The notes under the pieces were generated by a model. It was given only the letters and a program-made list of their open reading frames with translations. It was not told the origin of the DNA and did not search any database. Position numbers and translations under genes: made by a program. A stretch of 64,000 nt of DNA from Allacma fusca. Its lineage: Eukaryota > Arthropoda > Collembola > Symphypleona > Sminthuridae. Positions 6,203 through 62,431 of the stretch are shown here, piece after piece. Position 1 is the first letter of the stretch; every line of letters starts with the position of its first letter. The stretch lies in NCBI GenBank assembly GCA_947179485.1, contig OX359248.1, forward strand, positions 57,298,386-57,362,385, given 5' to 3'.

Positions 6203-7218
6203 AAGAATGGAGTTGTCCCGAACGGATTTTTATGTGCTTGTTCAGCTGGCTCGGGAGAATACTCGAGTGACTTATTTGGTTGGCCTGAAAAGGGGAAATT
6301 TGTGTATGAGGGATTGGGGCTGTGGAAGGAAAGAAATATTTGAGGGTTGGGGATATGGAAAGGTGGAAAATATTTTTTCCATTATGGATACAGACCGTGT
6401 TCTGAGGACTATGTAGAGGACGCTTATAAAGGGAAAGGTATCTGGAGATAGAGACAGTATCTGGAGTTTATTTTGCTCGTAAATCTCATGCTTCATTTCG
6501 CTAAAAGCTTACTTGTAACGCCCTTCTCTCCATCCTCCAACAAAACTCTTCCAAAGGGAGATCAGTCTCTTCCAATCTTCATATCGCTAGAGATTTCTCT
6601 CACTAAAGTCTAACTCTGTACCAGAGACCCCTGTACAAAAGCACCTTCGTTATAATAGCCACATTCATTTCCCCTTGAAATGTTCCCGTGCTCTTTGTGT
6701 CCCGTGCTCTGTCATGCATCCCAATTCATAATTCAGCAGAACTTCTTTATTGCGGACCCCCATATGCCATAACCTCTTTATAACGGCCTCGCTGGTTTCG
6801 TTCCAGTCTAACGTTCTACAAAAATAAAGCGACATAATACAAGCACTCGTGATGTCAAATGGTTTGCACAGAAATCCCAATCCCGCCCTTCCACCAAACA
6901 AGTCTAGAGAAAGGACCGTCATAAAGAAGTTTCCCTATGTGAAAAGAAACGAATACAATGAAAGCAATCAGCATGTCAAATCTGTTGTATAGAAATCTCA
7001 ATCGTAACCTCCCACTAAAAATATGTATTGAGCGGGTCCGTTATAAAGAGATTTTCCTATATTTGGCAGAGCTACTTGGAGAGTTGGAAAGAGAAGGGAG
7101 ATTTATGTATGCGGAGGTGATGGTACTTCTAAAAAGAGGAGTAGGCTCCGAGGATGAAGTAGTATCGGGCGGGGAGAGCATTATTTTAAAAAAGTTTTCC
7201 TTCCTCTTACATACTCTC

Positions 7219-7398
7219 TACAGTGTATAGTCTCTTATAAGGGACGCCTTTTCAACTAATTTTCTTTCTAGAGGAAAATGTTTTCCAGTCTTTGCTTTCT
7301 AGGTAGTGTCACTTTTTGTCCCGCACAAGTGCAAATGTGGGGATGAGAATCGAATCTGAATGAATGGCAAGGAGCCGTTATAAGGAGACGAGACTGTA
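7219..7398. mobile_element. TIR element (MITE-like), well preserved
   Basis: Left tacagtgtatagtctcttat aaggga; right gccgttataaggagacgaga then ctgta. TA flanks both ends. At 180 bp it is a typical copy of the family. Confidence 0.8.
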
Positions 7399-8437
7399 TG
7401 AGGGGTAGAAGTTGTGTGTTCGGGAGGACGATTTGAGCGCTAATCGAGTGTCACGATGCTCATTTATTGCTTGGAATTCACCTGACTGGTTTTTATCTCC
7501 TTCCTTGCACAACATACATTGAGCTCATCGATGAATAACCTGAATGTGTTTTGTCACTTTCTCTCCTTTCACTCGTCTCCTCTTTGCCCGACCAACGTCC
7601 CACAAAGGATGAAAGGGAAGCGGGGAAAATCTAAGGATGGAAGGTGTATTCACGAGTTTTCTCTTTCCGTCCTTTCCCCCGCTTTCTCTCTGTCTCGCTC
7701 TCTATTTTAATGACAAGGAAAAATGCTACTGTTCATTCCCCTTAAACCTTTCCGTACTCCACCTGTCACAGAGAAGCTTCGTGACGTCAGCGAGGATTTA
7801 CACACACAATCTTGGCACCACTACTGTGAAGTCTGGTTGTAACGTCCCGACAAAGAAAAACATTTCACTCAACTTAACCTAACTCAACCGAGCAGGTATT
7901 TCAAGGGTTAAAAAATCGTGATAATAGCCAAGAATATCCCAGAAGATTCTTTCCATATGTGAGCGGATCGTTTGTGAAGAGATTTCATTACATATTCTCT
8001 AATATGGAAAAAAAATTAATTGCTTTGAGGTTATATTTTATCTACATTTGTGTTTATGGATAAAATCCTTCACACTATATTACATCGAGTATACTAAAAG
8101 GACAAATATGAATTATTGACTGGCATCCCTTCGGGCGAAAGCTCAGTACAAAATCTCTCCTCCAACGAGAGTCTTATGTTTAGTTAAGTCAAATAGTAAA
8201 TACATAGATGACTCCGTCTCATATTCCAAATATGTTTCAAAACTGAAAATTTTGGTTGGGATGTAACATGATATATTTAAAATGAGAGATTGTTTAAATG
8301 TATATACGGTTGAAATTGCTTGTTAGAGAGTGGTTCGGAGTAAATACCCTTTGAGAGTTTAATAAAGGGAAAACGTTGGAAAAGAGAAAGCGAGGAAATT
8401 TGAGGTAGTGGCTAATGATGAATTTAATTGGTTTCAG

Positions 8438-8601
8438 GTTTTACTGGGATCTTTGTATGCTGCTGCTTCTCGTAGCTAATCTTATAATACTTCCGGTGGC
8501 CATCTCGTTCTTCAGAGATGATCTCAGCATCCGATGGATTGCGTTCAATTGCCTTTCAGATACTATCTTCCTTGTCGACATTGCTGTCAATTTTCGCACT
8601 G
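8438..8601 (+). CDS. Ih: Ih/HCN channel exon: S1 and S2 membrane helices
   Basis: The exon continues the HCN domain into the membrane: [20 protein letters not shown] is S1, [20 protein letters not shown] the short extracellular S1-S2 loop and start of S2, and [12 protein letters not shown] the end of S2. These motifs are diagnostic of HCN channels. The acceptor is gtttcag at 8431-8437 and the donor ACTG|gtaagt at 8602. It enters in phase 2 and leaves in phase 1 (one base of a Gly codon). The translation also runs open into the intron for about 46 codons, but those residues are not family-like and the consensus donor marks the real end. Confidence 0.97.
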
Positions 8602-8965
8602 GTAAGTTCCCTAGTTTTTTTTTCTCTACTCTTTATATGTCACGTTCAATTAGCTCCAAGCACCAATTTATCACTCGTGATGGAACGAATGCCAGCTTCG
8701 AGACTCCATGTGTTCCGTTCTCATCAAATGTGCTCAAATAATAAGTGACCCGCTGATTCAAGTTTATATCATTAATTTTAGTAATTACACGAATGGTATC
8801 CCATTTTCTCCTCCATTCTTATTTTCTTATACCATGTAATGATACAAGCAAGAATAGAGAGCTGTAATCGATGAACACTAGAGGAGGGTTTATTCACAAC
8901 AGTAATTAGCCACCTGTCAAAATAATATCATGCCAAACATCACACTTTGTCTGCACATCTTAATG

Positions 8966-9351
8966 TACAGTAGTCCCTCCTTAGAAAGGCCTTCTCTACG
9001 TCCGTTCAGTTAGTGTTTTCTCCAAAATTATATTCCATGTTAATGCATGGCGACGAAGGATACTATAAAAAATTCTGACACGATAAAACAAAATTCCCTG
9101 ACACAGGGATCCATTACGACCAGAGTTGTAATTATATGTTACTGTCATTATTAATACTGGCAGAAGGAAAACATGGAGAAATTACTCTGACAAAGAGAAT
9201 CGCTAGCAAAAATTCCGTCAAATAGAGGACATTTTAAAGAAGAGTTTTAACTAGACCGGAAAGTAAAAACAAGTAAAGTAGTAAAATATATTGTTTCCAG
9301 GGCGGAGTTAATGATTTTGTAAGGGATCCTGAATAAGGAAAGTGCACTGTA
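8966..9351. mobile_element. TIR element (MITE-like), degenerate
   Basis: Left tacagtagtccctccttaga, right atcctgaataaggaaagtgc then actgta. The terminal TACAGT/ACTGTA pair and the CC/GG-rich inner step match the family; at 386 bp it is longer than most. Confidence 0.45.
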
Positions 9352-22994: not shown

Positions 22995-23143
22995 GTATAA
23001 TGCTGAAGGATAATGCGGAGCAAGTGATATTAGACCCCGTTTTAATAGCAAAACACTATTTGAAGTCTTGGTTTGCTTTGGATCTGATATCATCCATTCC
23101 TTTGGATTACATTGTTCTCATTGTCTGCTACCTCGAATATTGC
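22995..23143 (+). CDS. Ih: Ih/HCN channel exon: S2-S3 linker and S3
   Basis: The first two bases complete the split Gly codon. The translation is [14 protein letters not shown], then [20 protein letters not shown] (the S2-S3 linker and start of S3), then [14 protein letters not shown]. The [10 protein letters not shown] and [12 protein letters not shown] motifs are strongly conserved in the family. The acceptor is ttgcag at 22989-22994 and the donor TGC|gtaagt at 23144, leaving phase 0. The end of the exon, VCYLEYC, replaces the IFNQ-like ending I remember from other arthropod Ih proteins. It places two cysteines just before the extracellular S3-S4 loop. This end may be species-specific or one of several splice choices, since arthropod Ih genes are known to vary in this loop. 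Confidence 0.95.
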
Positions 23144-26100
23144 GTAAGTCCCTTTAATTCATTCAAAACCTTATGTCGTGTAATAAAATCTTTTTAAATC
23201 ACTCATTTAACCCAATGTTGGGGACCTCTTAGAGGAAATAAAAACTGATTCTTCAAGTTAAAGTTGTAAAATCACAATTTACATATTACGGGCGAGTGTA
23301 AAAAATTTTGCAATTATTTTAACCTTAAATGCTCAGTTAGGAGGAACTGTACGGTCCATAATAAAACAACCAGTATTTCAGCATTAATTCAGATTTTCTC
23401 TAAAATTATTACACTTGAGCGAAAAATTAAGTGAAATATGTAAGCATATCTATTTAAGGCAGCTGTCCCTAAGAAAATGGTCAGGAAACACCGAAATCGG
23501 AATAAAATCATACAAGTAATTACTCATTTTGTTGAGGAAATTTTAAGGAGTTGAAATGTGTGTTTGAAATTAGTCTGAATTACACAAGTTAGAAAAAAAT
23601 GTTGTTAACCAGCTTATGGAATTTGTGTGGGATTATAAATTGGTCCAGTGGGGGAAGTTATCATGCTAATTAAAAGTCCTTGGGAATGCAAAGTGTTTCG
23701 AGTCTGAAAATCCGAAAAGGTCTCTGAATGAAAGGAAGGAATTTCCAGGAACTTTTGTTATTCTCAAGCACTTTGTTCCCAGCCCTCTCAATTCCTTGAA
23801 ATGTGTTTTAATGAAAGTGAAACTAATTTAAGACTTGTCTTTGTGGCTCTGCATGACCATTTACAATGGAACAGTCAACTCCGTCTGAATGGCAAGTGAG
23901 GCCTTGAGTTAATTAGATCCTTTTCCAGCTTACACTTCCTTCACAGTCAAAATACAGTAGAACGTCCTTACCCCGCCGGTTAGTTTATAGGGGCGTTAAA
24001 ATTCTATCGTACAAGGAGATTCAATTCTACTGGCTAAAATAATATACCTGTCAAATTTTGCAAGACAAAGGCGCATCGGCCCTTGTGACGAGACAGGTTT
24101 CTCCGGTGGGGCTGTTATAACGAGACTAACTATGTATACATAATTCAAATAAATCCGTAAATTTACCCATGACCGCGTTCTGTCAGGGCTTTGAGGTAGT
24201 ACAGGAGTGCTATTTTAGCCTTCCTTCCCTTATAAACAAGTTCTACTGTGCTGCGGAATAAGCATGCTCCAGGACTTCGGAATTCGACATTATTACAAGA
24301 TTACATTTGAAGTGGTACAAGAAGCATGGAATCTGCATACAATACAGATATATCAGGACAGTCTTTAGTTCCCTACAAGGAAGGCCCTTAATCACCTAAT
24401 TTCATAATTAGTATGCTATTCACTCATCCAAATTGAATAATTGCTTCCCTGGCTTATGTTTTAGGAAGGTCCATTATAAATGTTCTAGAATATTTATTAA
24501 AGCTTCACTGGAGGTACAACTAGCCAGGAGATTCCGCATCGTATCTGGGAAAATAAATTGTGTCATTGTAGCGATCGGTTTATAAATGAGGCCGTTATAA
24601 AGAGGTCCTGCTATTGTAAAGCTTTAGGAGTAAGAATATTAAGCCCAAAATATCTCGCATAAAATTTAATGTAGATACGTCTCTTTAACTAAGTTTTACT
24701 AAGGAGCCCGTAATAAAGAAGTTTAACTGTAGTTGTGAGAGAATTTGCTCTAGTATTTCATTTAGTTGAATTTTAAAGCTCCGGGAAAAGTTTAACCCCA
24801 GCTGACAATATTTCCTCACTTAATTTATTTACTTGTGGGGAATTTTAGTACATGGTAATAAAAGCGGGAAAAATTTGCGACGAAGGTTAGTCTATTGGAA
24901 AACATTCCCGGGAAAAGTTTTTCTTTCTTTTTTCTCTACGCTTGATTCTTTAATTATAAAGTTAGGGGAAATTGTAGGTAGAGAAAGGATTGAGGAGGAA
25001 TTACTGGGCTATGTGTACATTCGAAATTAGAAGGGAGACTGTGAGAGGACGATGTACGCAGGGGAGAGAAATGTGTGTGAGAGAAAGTGAGTGGAAACAG
25101 AAACTTGTCTTCCGATGGTTGTAAATTATCAAACCCCATTAAGGAAATCCTTTATCCTTGTAAACCACATTGTTTCTTTTTCCCTCAACTTTTTTTCACT
25201 GACACCAAATTACTCTCTGGTCTCTATTTGTCCCTCAACAAAACTCTACAGTCATTTATCCATACTCCGGACCTCCCCTCACTCTCTTCCAAAAATCCCA
25301 ACAGCTCACCTCATTTTTTTCCCCCCAACACCTTTCCCATATCGTTCAAAATGTCTCTTCTACAAATAAAATTCCAACGAGTCTCTTTATAGTGGAATAT
25401 ACATTATAAAGTGTAATCTTGATAATTTATCCTTACAATATTGCAATAAAATTATTTTACCCTATTTACCGTTAGTGTTAAAATTGTTGCATTGCAAAAG
25501 GATGTCTTGTTCAAAAGGAAACCATTTGCAAATTCCCAGTACTTCCTTTCTTGCTGAGTGGATATTGTTTTATTTTGAGGTGATTTTAAATTAAACAGAA
25601 AGATTTCACTGTAGATTGGATGGGACGTAGAAACTCCCTCGGTTGTTCACGCCTGGACGAGCAGGACATTCTAGGAATAATGGATCGTAAAGACAAAAGG
25701 AATTAAAAAACAATCCCGCACTTTTTCTTCTTTCACTATTCTACATACTTTCCCTTAATTTACAAGCCCTCCGATGAGAAAATACCAGATCTCATTGCTA
25801 ACAAGGACCCTGCAATTATTTAATTAAAACTTTACCCCGTCTTTGCCCAAATGAACCTTGCTTTGGATTTCAGGGAATGCATGTTAAGCAAAGATTTTTT
25901 GAAAGTTGGATTTTAAGGCAAACTTGGACCGGCATTCATTTTTTCGCAATTTACGAGCTCAGGTTTAAAAAATGACTCGTAAAAAAGCAAAATGAATTTA
26001 GAACGGGTGTGTGTACATGATTTATTTTTAAATTATAAAAATTTATATAAGAGACTTAATAAGGGGTAATACATAGTATGAAAAAAAAAATTTCTACGAA

Positions 26101-26410
26101 AAATGTTTCTGCTTTGAGACGTCAGAATTGAGGAAAATTTGAGTTGCACTGTACTTCACTCTGTTATTTTCCAGTCTGAATAAAACATGTTTCTTGTGTT
26201 GAGCGAAAAGGTTTGGACGCAAAACTTTTTGTGTAAAAAATAGTTCCTGCAGATATTGTGAGCATTGCTTTGGAGAAAATATAATTACAATTTCTCTGTT
26301 TTTCTGATATTGTGTTTTCGCAATGCTGGGGTTGGGTGCAGTCACATTAGACGCCTATACGAAGGTTTCGGAGGAGCTAATTTGTAATGTATTTGCTGAT
26401 TTTGTTGCAG
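23144..26410 (+). other. Ih: Ih intron between S3 and S4 exons (3.3 kb)
   Basis: The smallest intron in the window, gtaagt to ttgttgcag. It holds one paired element (23953-24136) and right-hand ends finishing near 24253, 24618, 24731 and 26163. A micro-exon for the S3-S4 loop could hide here, but I could not find one. Confidence 0.8.
23953..24136. mobile_element. TIR element (MITE-like)
   Basis: Left tacagtagaacgtccttacc, right ggctgttataacgagactaa then ctatgta. 184 bp with TA at both ends. Confidence 0.6.
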
Positions 26411-26557
26411 GATTTCAGCGACAATGTCCACAGCTTCCAGTTCATCCACGCGGGACGTGCTCTGAAGATTCTTCGAATGGTAAAACTGCTGAGTTTGGTT
26501 CGGCTCCTTCGGCTCTCTCGACTCGTTCGTTATGTGTCCCAATGGGAAGAGGTCTAT
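26411..26557 (+). CDS. Ih: Ih/HCN channel exon: S4 voltage sensor
   Basis: Forty-nine codons encode the S3-S4 loop end ([15 protein letters not shown]) and S4. Basic residues occur at every third position (R, K, R, K, then Ser in KLLSLV, then R, R, R, R), followed by [11 protein letters not shown]. The array of positive charges interrupted by one serine, and the S4-S5 linker motif QWEEVY, are HCN hallmarks. S4 moves inward on hyperpolarization and opens the pore. The acceptor is tttgttgcag and the donor TAT|gtaagt at 26558; the exon enters and leaves in phase 0. It has no in-frame stop and is far more GC-rich than the surrounding intron. Confidence 0.97.
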
Positions 26558-38635: not shown

Positions 38636-38955
38636 GCCGTAGACCCTTATTTTTCTTCAAGTGTGATTTTTGGTTGCTCCTGAGTTGGGAAGCCAAAAGT
38701 GTAAAATAAAGCCTTGATAACCTCCCTCCTCTATTTTGTTACTCTCGAAGGAATTTTTGTGTAAATATACCGTGGATCTCCGTCGTGTCATAGTTTCTGT
38801 GAATTTGGTATTTGTAATGTATCCTTGGTTTCATGTTATTTTTTGGGTCCCGATTGTACAAACTCTTATTTTTGTGGAAAAAATTACTTTGACATGGTTC
38901 GTAAATGGTCCCCCTTTAACCGTCCCTTCTGCATTGTTCGCTGTTTTCTTCACAG

Positions 38956-39054
38956 CTACGTCAAAGCCTGCACCAAAAGCGTACACGTCAACGACGAGAC
39001 TCGACTTCTTCCGGGAAAAAGGAACCTTTCTCGGGCAAAAATCTCATTCTGAAG
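38956..39054 (+). CDS. Candidate cassette exon inserting 33 residues in the S4-S5 linker of Ih
   Basis: Seen: a pyrimidine-rich acceptor (ttttcttcacag, ending at 38955) and a consensus donor (CTGAAG|gtaggt at 39055) enclose exactly 99 bases. They are open in phase 0, the phase required between the S4 exon (ends in phase 0) and the S5 exon (starts in phase 0). The translation starts LRQSLHQKRTRQRRDS and ends FSGKNLILK; it is very basic and holds the protein-kinase-A-like motif RRDS. The stretch is more GC-rich than the intron around it, and it is on the same strand as the gene. Inference: an optional exon that would read ...WEEVY|LRQSL...LILK|FLNMAS.... From memory, some arthropod Ih isoforms carry a basic insert at about this place, but I cannot check it. 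Without transcripts this remains a candidate; the chance of a random 99-bp open exon with good splice sites in a 20-kb intron is not negligible. Confidence 0.6.
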
Positions 39055-39417
39055 GTAGGTTTCAAGCCTCGCCTCCCTTCACTCACACCTTTTAACCCAG
39101 TCAATTCTTCTTCTCTCTCTCTCTCTATTCCATTTTTTATTTATTTTTTAGCCCCCACCCGTCTTCCAAACTTATTATTTTCACCTATTTTTTTTTACAT
39201 TTCTACTATTTATTTTTTTTCCAGAATTTTTACACGATTTTACTTTTTTTTTTTGCCAGATGTCACACCTCCCAACTCAATTTTCTCACACTTGATTTCC
39301 CTTCCGCTGCGTCTTCCCCAATTTGACTTGTCCTATTACTATTCATTAAGCTCCACATTTTTTTCTTGCCTTCTGTTTTGCCTTCAAATTACATGTGACG
39401 ACAAGGGGCTATGTGTA

Positions 39418-46740: not shown

Positions 46741-46890
46741 TTTCTGAACATGGCATCAGTTTTCATGCGGATATTCAATTTGATATGCATGATGCTCCTA
46801 ATTGGGCATTGGTCTGGTTGCCTACAATTTCTTGTGCCTATGCTCCAGGGATTCCCATCCAACTCTTGGGTTGCAATAAATGAGCTCCAG
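46741..46890 (+). CDS. Ih: Ih/HCN channel exon: S5 and pore turret
   Basis: Fifty codons: [20 protein letters not shown] begins S5, followed by [18 protein letters not shown] and [10 protein letters not shown], the extracellular turret before the pore helix. [11 protein letters not shown] is one of the best-conserved HCN segments. The acceptor is ttttttgttccag ending at 46740; the donor CAG|gtaaaa at 46891 is slightly off consensus. Both borders are phase 0. Two inverted-repeat elements (45821-45977 and 46417-46587) sit within the 1 kb before its acceptor. Confidence 0.97.
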
Positions 46891-52528: not shown

Positions 52529-53043
52529 GTTTGTAGAGAAAGATGTTAAGGAGGAAGTTGCTTTAGGAAGGAATCCCAGCTCGCACAAAGGAAGGCAGGA
52601 ATTGCATCAAAACATTTTTCTAATTAATTATTTCTCCTGTCTCCATTTCCTGGCTTTTCTCCATGTCCATTTCACCTGACAACATTTCCAGCCATTTCTT
52701 TCTAACATCCATTAACTCACTCACAATTTCAGTGTTGTTAAATATTTTCCCTATCCCTTTAGTACGTCAAATCTAAACAAATTCCCATTATTATCGCATC
52801 AGTAGATACCCATAATAATACCAGCTGAAATGGGATGCTCCATGGGTGTCCTTACACCGAGAGGGCACTGTATCTACTTATATAATTATAGTGTGAGCTT
52901 AGGATGACTTTACAGATAGGATTCCCTCCGTACTTGGCTAAAGTAGGAATTTCGTAAATTAAGAGGAACGAGTATGACAATTTCTACGGCGTCTCTTTCC
53001 TTTAAAGAAGCATTGTGGGACAGTAGAGAAATGAAGAAGAAAG

Positions 53044-53110
53044 TAAGAAAATCGGGAAAATAGAGAAAATAGAGAAAATAGGGAAAACAGTGAAAATAAG
53101 GAAAATAGGA
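53044..53110. repeat. Imperfect 9-bp tandem repeat GAAAATAGA
   Basis: About seven units of GAAAATAGA with drift to GAAAACAGT and GAAAATAAG. Purine-rich on the + strand. Confidence 0.8.
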
Positions 53111-53261
53111 AAAGAGAGAGTAAAAGGAGGGATGAAAGTAAAGTAAATTGATGTGACCTCTGAGATTGTTTGTAAATACTACGTGCTCAGACACAACTCG
53201 TCCGCTTCTTGGCAAATATGCTCCAATTAGGGAGATTGCAAAAGCAGGGAAGATCAGTGCA

Positions 53262-55690: not shown

Positions 55691-55909
55691 GACGCCTTCT
55701 GGCTGGAGCAGTACTCATGGGCGCTGTTCAAGGCGATGTCACACATGTTGTGCATCGGCTATGGACGGTTTCCTCCGCAGTCCCTGACGGACATGTGGCT
55801 CACCATGCTGTCCATGATCTCCGGGGCAACTTGCTACGCTCTTTTTCTAGGTCACGCCACCAATCTCATCCAGAGTCTGGACTCCTCCCGAAGACAGTAT
55901 CGCGAGAAG
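55691..55909 (+). CDS. Ih: Ih/HCN channel exon: pore helix, selectivity filter and S6
   Basis: Seventy-three codons: [20 protein letters not shown] is the pore helix, CIGYGRFPP the selectivity filter (the GYG signature with preceding CI, as in HCN channels that pass both sodium and potassium), [20 protein letters not shown] the S6 gate helix, and [16 protein letters not shown] the exit into the C-linker. The acceptor is tttttgttag ending at 55690. The donor GAGAAG|gtcagg at 55910 is a poor match to consensus beyond GT. It is nevertheless required, because REK joins LKQVEEY of the next exon in phase 0 exactly as the family alignment demands. This is the most GC-rich exon in the window. Confidence 0.97.
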
Positions 55910-58492: not shown

Positions 58493-58986
<494 letters not shown>

Positions 58987-62284: not shown

Positions 62285-62431
62285 CTGAAACAGGTGGAAG
62301 AGTACATGGCATATCGAAAACTTCCAAGAAATATGAGAGCTCGAATCACTGAATACTTCGAACATCGTTACCAAGGAAAGTTCTTCGACGAAGATGCCAT
62401 TCTTGGCGAGTTGTCCGAAAAATTACGCGAG
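62285..62431 (+). CDS. Ih: Ih/HCN channel exon: start of the C-linker
   Basis: Forty-nine codons: [49 protein letters not shown]. These are the first helices of the C-linker, which forms the tetrameric ring that passes cAMP binding on to the S6 gate; EHRYQGK and the FDED region are family signatures. The acceptor is ggttattgcag ending at 62284 and the donor GAG|gtaaga at 62432; both are phase 0. The next expected exon (end of C-linker and cyclic-nucleotide-binding domain) is not found before 64000. Confidence 0.96.

Follow-up and report, generated by a model that had tools for sequence, protein, structure and literature searches.

An HCN channel gene of Allacma fusca

The window analyzed here, a stretch of 64,000 nucleotides from the springtail Allacma fusca, carries an HCN (Ih) channel gene on its plus strand, with eight exons if the 99-bp block discussed below is included. 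The N-terminal exon (positions 562 to 867, borders checked) encodes the ion-transport N-terminal domain (Pfam PF08412) and ends with ...HPCSNFR. It is followed by the exons for S1-S2 (8438 to 8601), S2-S3 (22995 to 23143), S4 (26411 to 26557, ending with WEEVY in phase 0), S5 (46741 to 46890, starting with FLNMAS in phase 0), pore-S6 (55691 to 55909), and the C-linker (62285 to 62431), all on the plus strand. These exons were placed by their borders, the joined reading frame, and alignment to HCN4, and those of S4 and S5 were additionally supported by a genome search. AG/GT borders were found at the seven HCN exons, which join into a single stop-free frame, whose length is 460 codons if the block is included and 427 codons if it is left out. 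The exons encoding the cyclic-nucleotide-binding domain lie downstream, past the end of the window, in the genome piece L034.

The reading frame at 539 to 871 matched Ion_trans_N (PF08412) with an E value of 1.1e-25, and Ion_trans (PF00520) was recovered with an E value of 4e-22. Similarly, the cyclic-nucleotide-binding domain PF00027 was found in L034 (E of 5.8e-10) and, under the curated cut-off, in the piece that follows (E of 0.0074). The core from S1 to the C-linker, without the block, aligned to HCN4 over 325 residues (E of 1.3e-130). Among the best 60 of 92 matches of this core to solved structures, HCN4, HCN3, and HCN1 came on top, and CNG and KCNH structures ranked after the HCN matches, from about 1e-25. 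Judged from its Ion_trans_N and Ion_trans domains, the downstream cyclic-nucleotide-binding domain, and its closest structures, the gene is an HCN (Ih) channel, and it is intact on both sides of the block. A search of the S4-S5 peptide against the whole genome (E up to 0.001) recovered the S4 and S5 exons only, and no second copy of an HCN gene was found.

Several other features were observed along the gene. At the junction of the S2-S3 and S4 exons (22995 to 23143 and 26411 to 26557), alignment to HCN4 needed gaps of 8 and 1 residues, and the S3-S4 loop of the springtail is therefore longer than that of HCN4. The intron between the S5 and pore exons harbors an imperfect 9/27-bp tandem array (53038 to 53119; GAAAATAGG), and the intron before the C-linker exon harbors a perfect 9-bp tandem array with 17.9 copies of TTTCCCCAC (58677 to 58837). 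Just upstream of the window, the piece L032 contains two GC-rich minisatellite arrays within positions 8344 to 9147 (8344 to 8539 and 8857 to 9147), built of CGGGGACAA... units of 30 to 82 bp. After the binding domain, L034 carries a long Thr/Ser/Pro-rich repetitive reading frame (6600 to 8180) that starts with an RLNKIGKNPN stretch and contains TTSGTVP-like repeats.

A candidate 33-codon exon between S4 and S5

The S4 and S5 exons are separated by a phase-0 intron of 20,183 bp, and inside it lies the block of interest, a candidate exon of 33 codons on the plus strand (38956 to 39054, 99 bp; LRQSLHQKRTRQRRDSTSSGKKEPFSGKNLILK). The acceptor ttttcttcacag ends at 38955, and the donor gtaggt begins at 39055. 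Both junctions, the end of the S4 exon and the start of the S5 exon, are in phase 0, and the length of the block is phase neutral. The block had been proposed as a cassette exon in a first-pass annotation, whose coordinates, acceptor, donor, phase, strand, and translation proved exact when the sequence was read again. Its placement of the 33 residues between WEEVY and FLNMAS agrees with the exon ends and with the 0/0 phase. The block had also been described as GC-rich, and indeed its GC content is 0.485 compared to 0.357 for the intron, a value reached by 3.1% of the 20,084 intron 99-mers.

Two further statements had to be toned down. The block had been called open in the one phase that fits, and the fitting frame is open, but this does not discriminate: a second sense frame contains no stop at all and the third has one at its last codon only, so that openness counts as weak evidence. 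Likewise, "mostly basic" overstates the composition of the peptide, in which 10 of 33 residues are K or R and two are D or E, giving a net charge of +8. The peptide contains one RRxS motif (RRDS) and ends in an NLILK-like stretch ahead of FLNMAS. In this it resembles some insect Ih isoforms, which carry an insert ending like ...NLILK before FLNMAS.

Splice signals of the block and their surroundings

Splice sites were scored in bits with matrices representing a generic metazoan consensus, set down from general knowledge and not trained on Allacma fusca. Intron candidates had to be in phase 0, stop free, and 30 to 300 bases long, with at least 3 bits at each site. With these matrices, the block scored 22.1 bits (acceptor, 11.7; donor, 10.4), which was the best among 11 phase-0 candidates of its intron, the runner-up reaching 15.3 bits. 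Each of the seven remaining HCN exons in the window had a lower sum of acceptor and donor, between 12.6 and 17.2. Within the intron, the donor (AAG/GTAGGT, 39055 to 39060, plus strand) ranked second among 1,073 GTs and the acceptor fourth among 1,022 AGs. When five other introns of the gene were scanned on the sense strand and in the proper phase, no candidate attained 17 bits (best, 16.9). In particular, the intron at 23144 to 26410 held no phase-0 candidate of at least 12 bits for an S3-S4 cassette of the kind described in flies, exons of at least 30 bases being scanned.

The acceptor region (38794 to 38955, plus strand) comprises an AG-free zone, a yUnAy site (ttaac) at -37, a polypyrimidine tract, and the terminal cag. 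The zone before the acceptor AG is free of AG for 160 bases; only 2 of the 1,023 AG gaps of the intron are that long or longer, and the AG-free stretches at the six other exons from S1-S2 to the C-linker measure 14 to 74 bases. Long AG-free zones accompany real, often regulated acceptors. Downstream of the block, a pyrimidine-rich tract (39103 to 39130, plus strand) contains a (CT)n run that begins about 59 bases past the donor; the intron has three (CT)5+ runs in total, this one included. From its sequence, this tract could be a site for a PTB-type splicing regulator, and the (CT)n run could be a repressor site. No UGCAUG (Fox-type) motif was present in the 300 bases flanking the block on each side.

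Alternative versus constitutive inclusion

With a consensus acceptor and donor on the strand of the gene and a phase-neutral length, the block bears the signature of a cassette exon, and we consider it probable that it is alternatively included and that both channel forms are made. The alternative of a real but constitutive exon, in which case the channel would always carry a 33-residue loop and the short junction would be absent or rare, draws on the splice sites themselves. Indeed, the block acceptor is stronger than that of S5 (11.7 versus 8.8), the block donor is stronger than that of S4 (10.4 versus 6.4), and the block lies closer to the S4 donor than the S5 exon does (12.4 kb versus 20.2 kb). 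Such strong sites suggest that skipping would not be frequent, and since they outscore the S4 donor and the S5 acceptor, the longer channel could be the one made by default. On the other hand, skipping the block is phase neutral, and the long AG-free zone and the nearby CT runs are, by general knowledge, features of regulated exons. Furthermore, the junction left by skipping, WEEVY/FLNMAS, is the one known from other arthropod species. Finally, a passage of PMC4382183 states that splicing gives the Drosophila Ih channel S3-S4 and S4-S5 loops of different length. We consider constitutive inclusion unlikely, and alternative inclusion is the reading that we retain.

Assessment of a chance resemblance

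The block might also be a decoy, a cryptic sequence of this long intron that resembles an exon by chance and is spliced rarely or never. In simulations, a candidate attaining 22.1 bits was present in 11 of 1,500 order-1 Markov introns and in 9 of 1,500 order-3 introns (20/3,000 together, about 0.7%), and in a separate run 1 of 300 introns attained the score of the block. Chance can therefore produce an equally good candidate, albeit at this low rate. However, the simulations leave the 160-base AG-free zone and the contrast in T content unscored, and both favor an exon. The block contains little T while its flanks are rich in it, a contrast matched by 0.05% of 19,783 intron positions, and its purine excess over the flanks is equaled by 0.5% of intron positions. 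The T contrast supports an exon but does not decide for it, since the true exons of the gene display it unevenly and some not at all.

We then widened the scan to the window plus 24 ten-kb genome pieces on both strands, amounting to 608 kb counted by strand. Only two phase-0 candidates of at least 22.1 bits were found, the block and an exon of a Ras family gene, so that the sole other candidate of this strength is itself an exon. A third candidate (20.2 bits) lies on the minus strand of the window and has no Pfam match.

Codon statistics were neutral, which leaves some room for a decoy. In a test trained on 1,057 codons of the same HCN gene, the log-likelihood per codon was 0.05 bits for the frame of the block, and the two remaining frames scored 0.06 and 0.20, so that the frame was not singled out; the score of the block was reached by 5.95% of 3,343 open intron 99-mers. 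This test has little power here, because scores of only -0.22 to 0.40 were obtained for six true HCN exons.

Similarity searches with the block peptide returned no match in the PDB up to an E value of 10 and none in Pfam up to an E value of 1. In collections of bacterial/archaeal and viral contigs, 13 and 4 pattern matches, respectively, were obtained, none of which was confirmed as a relative. A literature text search with peptide strings of the insert, its junctions, and NLILK-type ends gave no match. Two possible origins were considered and set aside. No second copy was found that could form a mutually exclusive pair with the block: in the genome search the peptide matched only itself (E up to 10), and no related repeat of at least 30 bases was detected within the intron either. 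The same protein-level search, with no other genome match up to an E value of 10, speaks against an origin from a transposon or repeat.

Weighing these data, we regard a chance decoy as very improbable. A non-coding element of the intron that merely resembles an exon, such as an enhancer, a small RNA, or the exon of an unrelated transcript, can practically be dismissed, for although three open or nearly open sense frames do not force a coding role, both splice sites lie on the strand of the gene and phase and length fit. The splice scores, simulations, genome scan, AG-free zone, and composition bear out the central part of the first-pass reading, an in-frame exon at the S4-S5 junction, and on the strength of its sequence the block is, with high probability, a genuine exon of the springtail gene.

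Predicted effect of the insert on the S4-S5 turn

The exon would be inserted after Y and before F, within the S4-S5 turn. If the block is skipped, the junction would read ...QWEEVY/FLNMAS.... The stretch from S4 to S5 is QWEEIFHMTYDLAS in HCN4 and QWEEVYFLNMAS in the short springtail form, which is 2 residues shorter; the aligner sets this two-residue gap two residues past the insertion point, but its exact placement is arbitrary. If the block is included, each subunit carrying it would gain in this turn a 33-residue, probably flexible loop with a net charge of +8.

Structural work on HCN channels argues that coupling occurs via lateral contacts between S4 and S5 and not through a rigid lever. 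According to passages of PMC10317503, S4 and S5 are also coupled by side contacts, and HCN channels severed between these two segments retain their coupling. Passages on split HCN (PMC10317503) and EAG (PMC7174612) channels describe a covalent S4-S5 link as dispensable for voltage gating. Those split channels are laboratory constructs in which the link was cut, whereas the natural loop of the springtail would loosen it. Because side contacts couple S4 and S5 and cut channels still couple, the insert may tune the gating signal and not transmit it.

Counting the contact residues of HCN1 onto the springtail alignment placed W and E on the S4 side of the insertion and R and N on its S5 side, and all four are kept. 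Since the HCN1 contacts between S4 and S5 flank the insertion point on both sides, a channel with the insert should be able to assemble and to gate, with altered voltage dependence or speed, and with these four residues kept around the insertion, we infer that the channel would accept a flexible 33-residue loop, which would tune the coupling. A further HCN1 contact residue, a D, reads N in the springtail. At the start of the S5 exon (46741 to 46758), the position of HCN1 D290 is occupied by this N, and that of Y289 falls in a gap of the HCN4 alignment. The D290-K412 contact described for HCN1 in a passage of PMC10317503 would therefore be absent in the springtail.

The basic loop could rest on the C-linker or on acidic lipid of the inner leaflet. 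In a channel made of four long subunits, about +32 charges would be added at the inner face of the membrane. The RRDS motif, presumably a PKA-type site, could be a target for phosphorylation. A more far-reaching proposal, which we consider quite unlikely, is that the long form is the default channel and that its basic, phosphorylatable loop (RRDS) puts kinase signaling directly on the coupling of sensor to gate. In that event, a kinase route would stand beside the usual cAMP route via the binding domain.

Comparison with Ih channels of other animals

The S4-S5 region of mammalian HCN1-4 is equivalent to that of the springtail, apart from the two residues by which the short springtail turn falls behind HCN4. 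We know of no mammalian insert exon at this position. Among arthropods, Ouyang and colleagues are said to have reported in 2007 that alternative splicing alters Ih channel properties in the spiny lobster (PIIH). The lobster resembles the springtail in being an arthropod with an Ih gene.

The closest parallel considered here is Drosophila. It has a single HCN gene, DmIh, as the springtail appears to, and in the fly the length of the S4-S5 loop is changed by splicing. A passage of PMC3344876 gives this single gene potentially at least 12 isoforms, which share S1-S3, and both that source and PMC4382183 cite Gisselmann et al. 2005 for Ih splicing in the passages concerned. The parallel suggested in the first-pass annotation, basic inserts near this point in some arthropod Ih isoforms, is backed by the relevant passage of PMC4382183 as regards the variation in S4-S5 length. 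The springtail insert sits exactly between the S4 and S5 exons, and that passage places the DmIh variants within the S4-S5 loop. We reverse complemented the isoform primers given in that part of PMC4382183 and read them by eye, and none could be placed in the S4-S5 loop. By analogy with the fly, the candidate S4-S5 exon is a further case of the Ih loop-length variation already reported in Drosophila and not a new kind of variation.

If the exon is used, the S4-S5 length variation of Drosophila would reach the springtail lineage, and the exon would provide a natural test of the weight of the S4-S5 turn in HCN channels. Its use would also suggest an old hexapod or arthropod device by which two pacemaker channels are made out of one gene.
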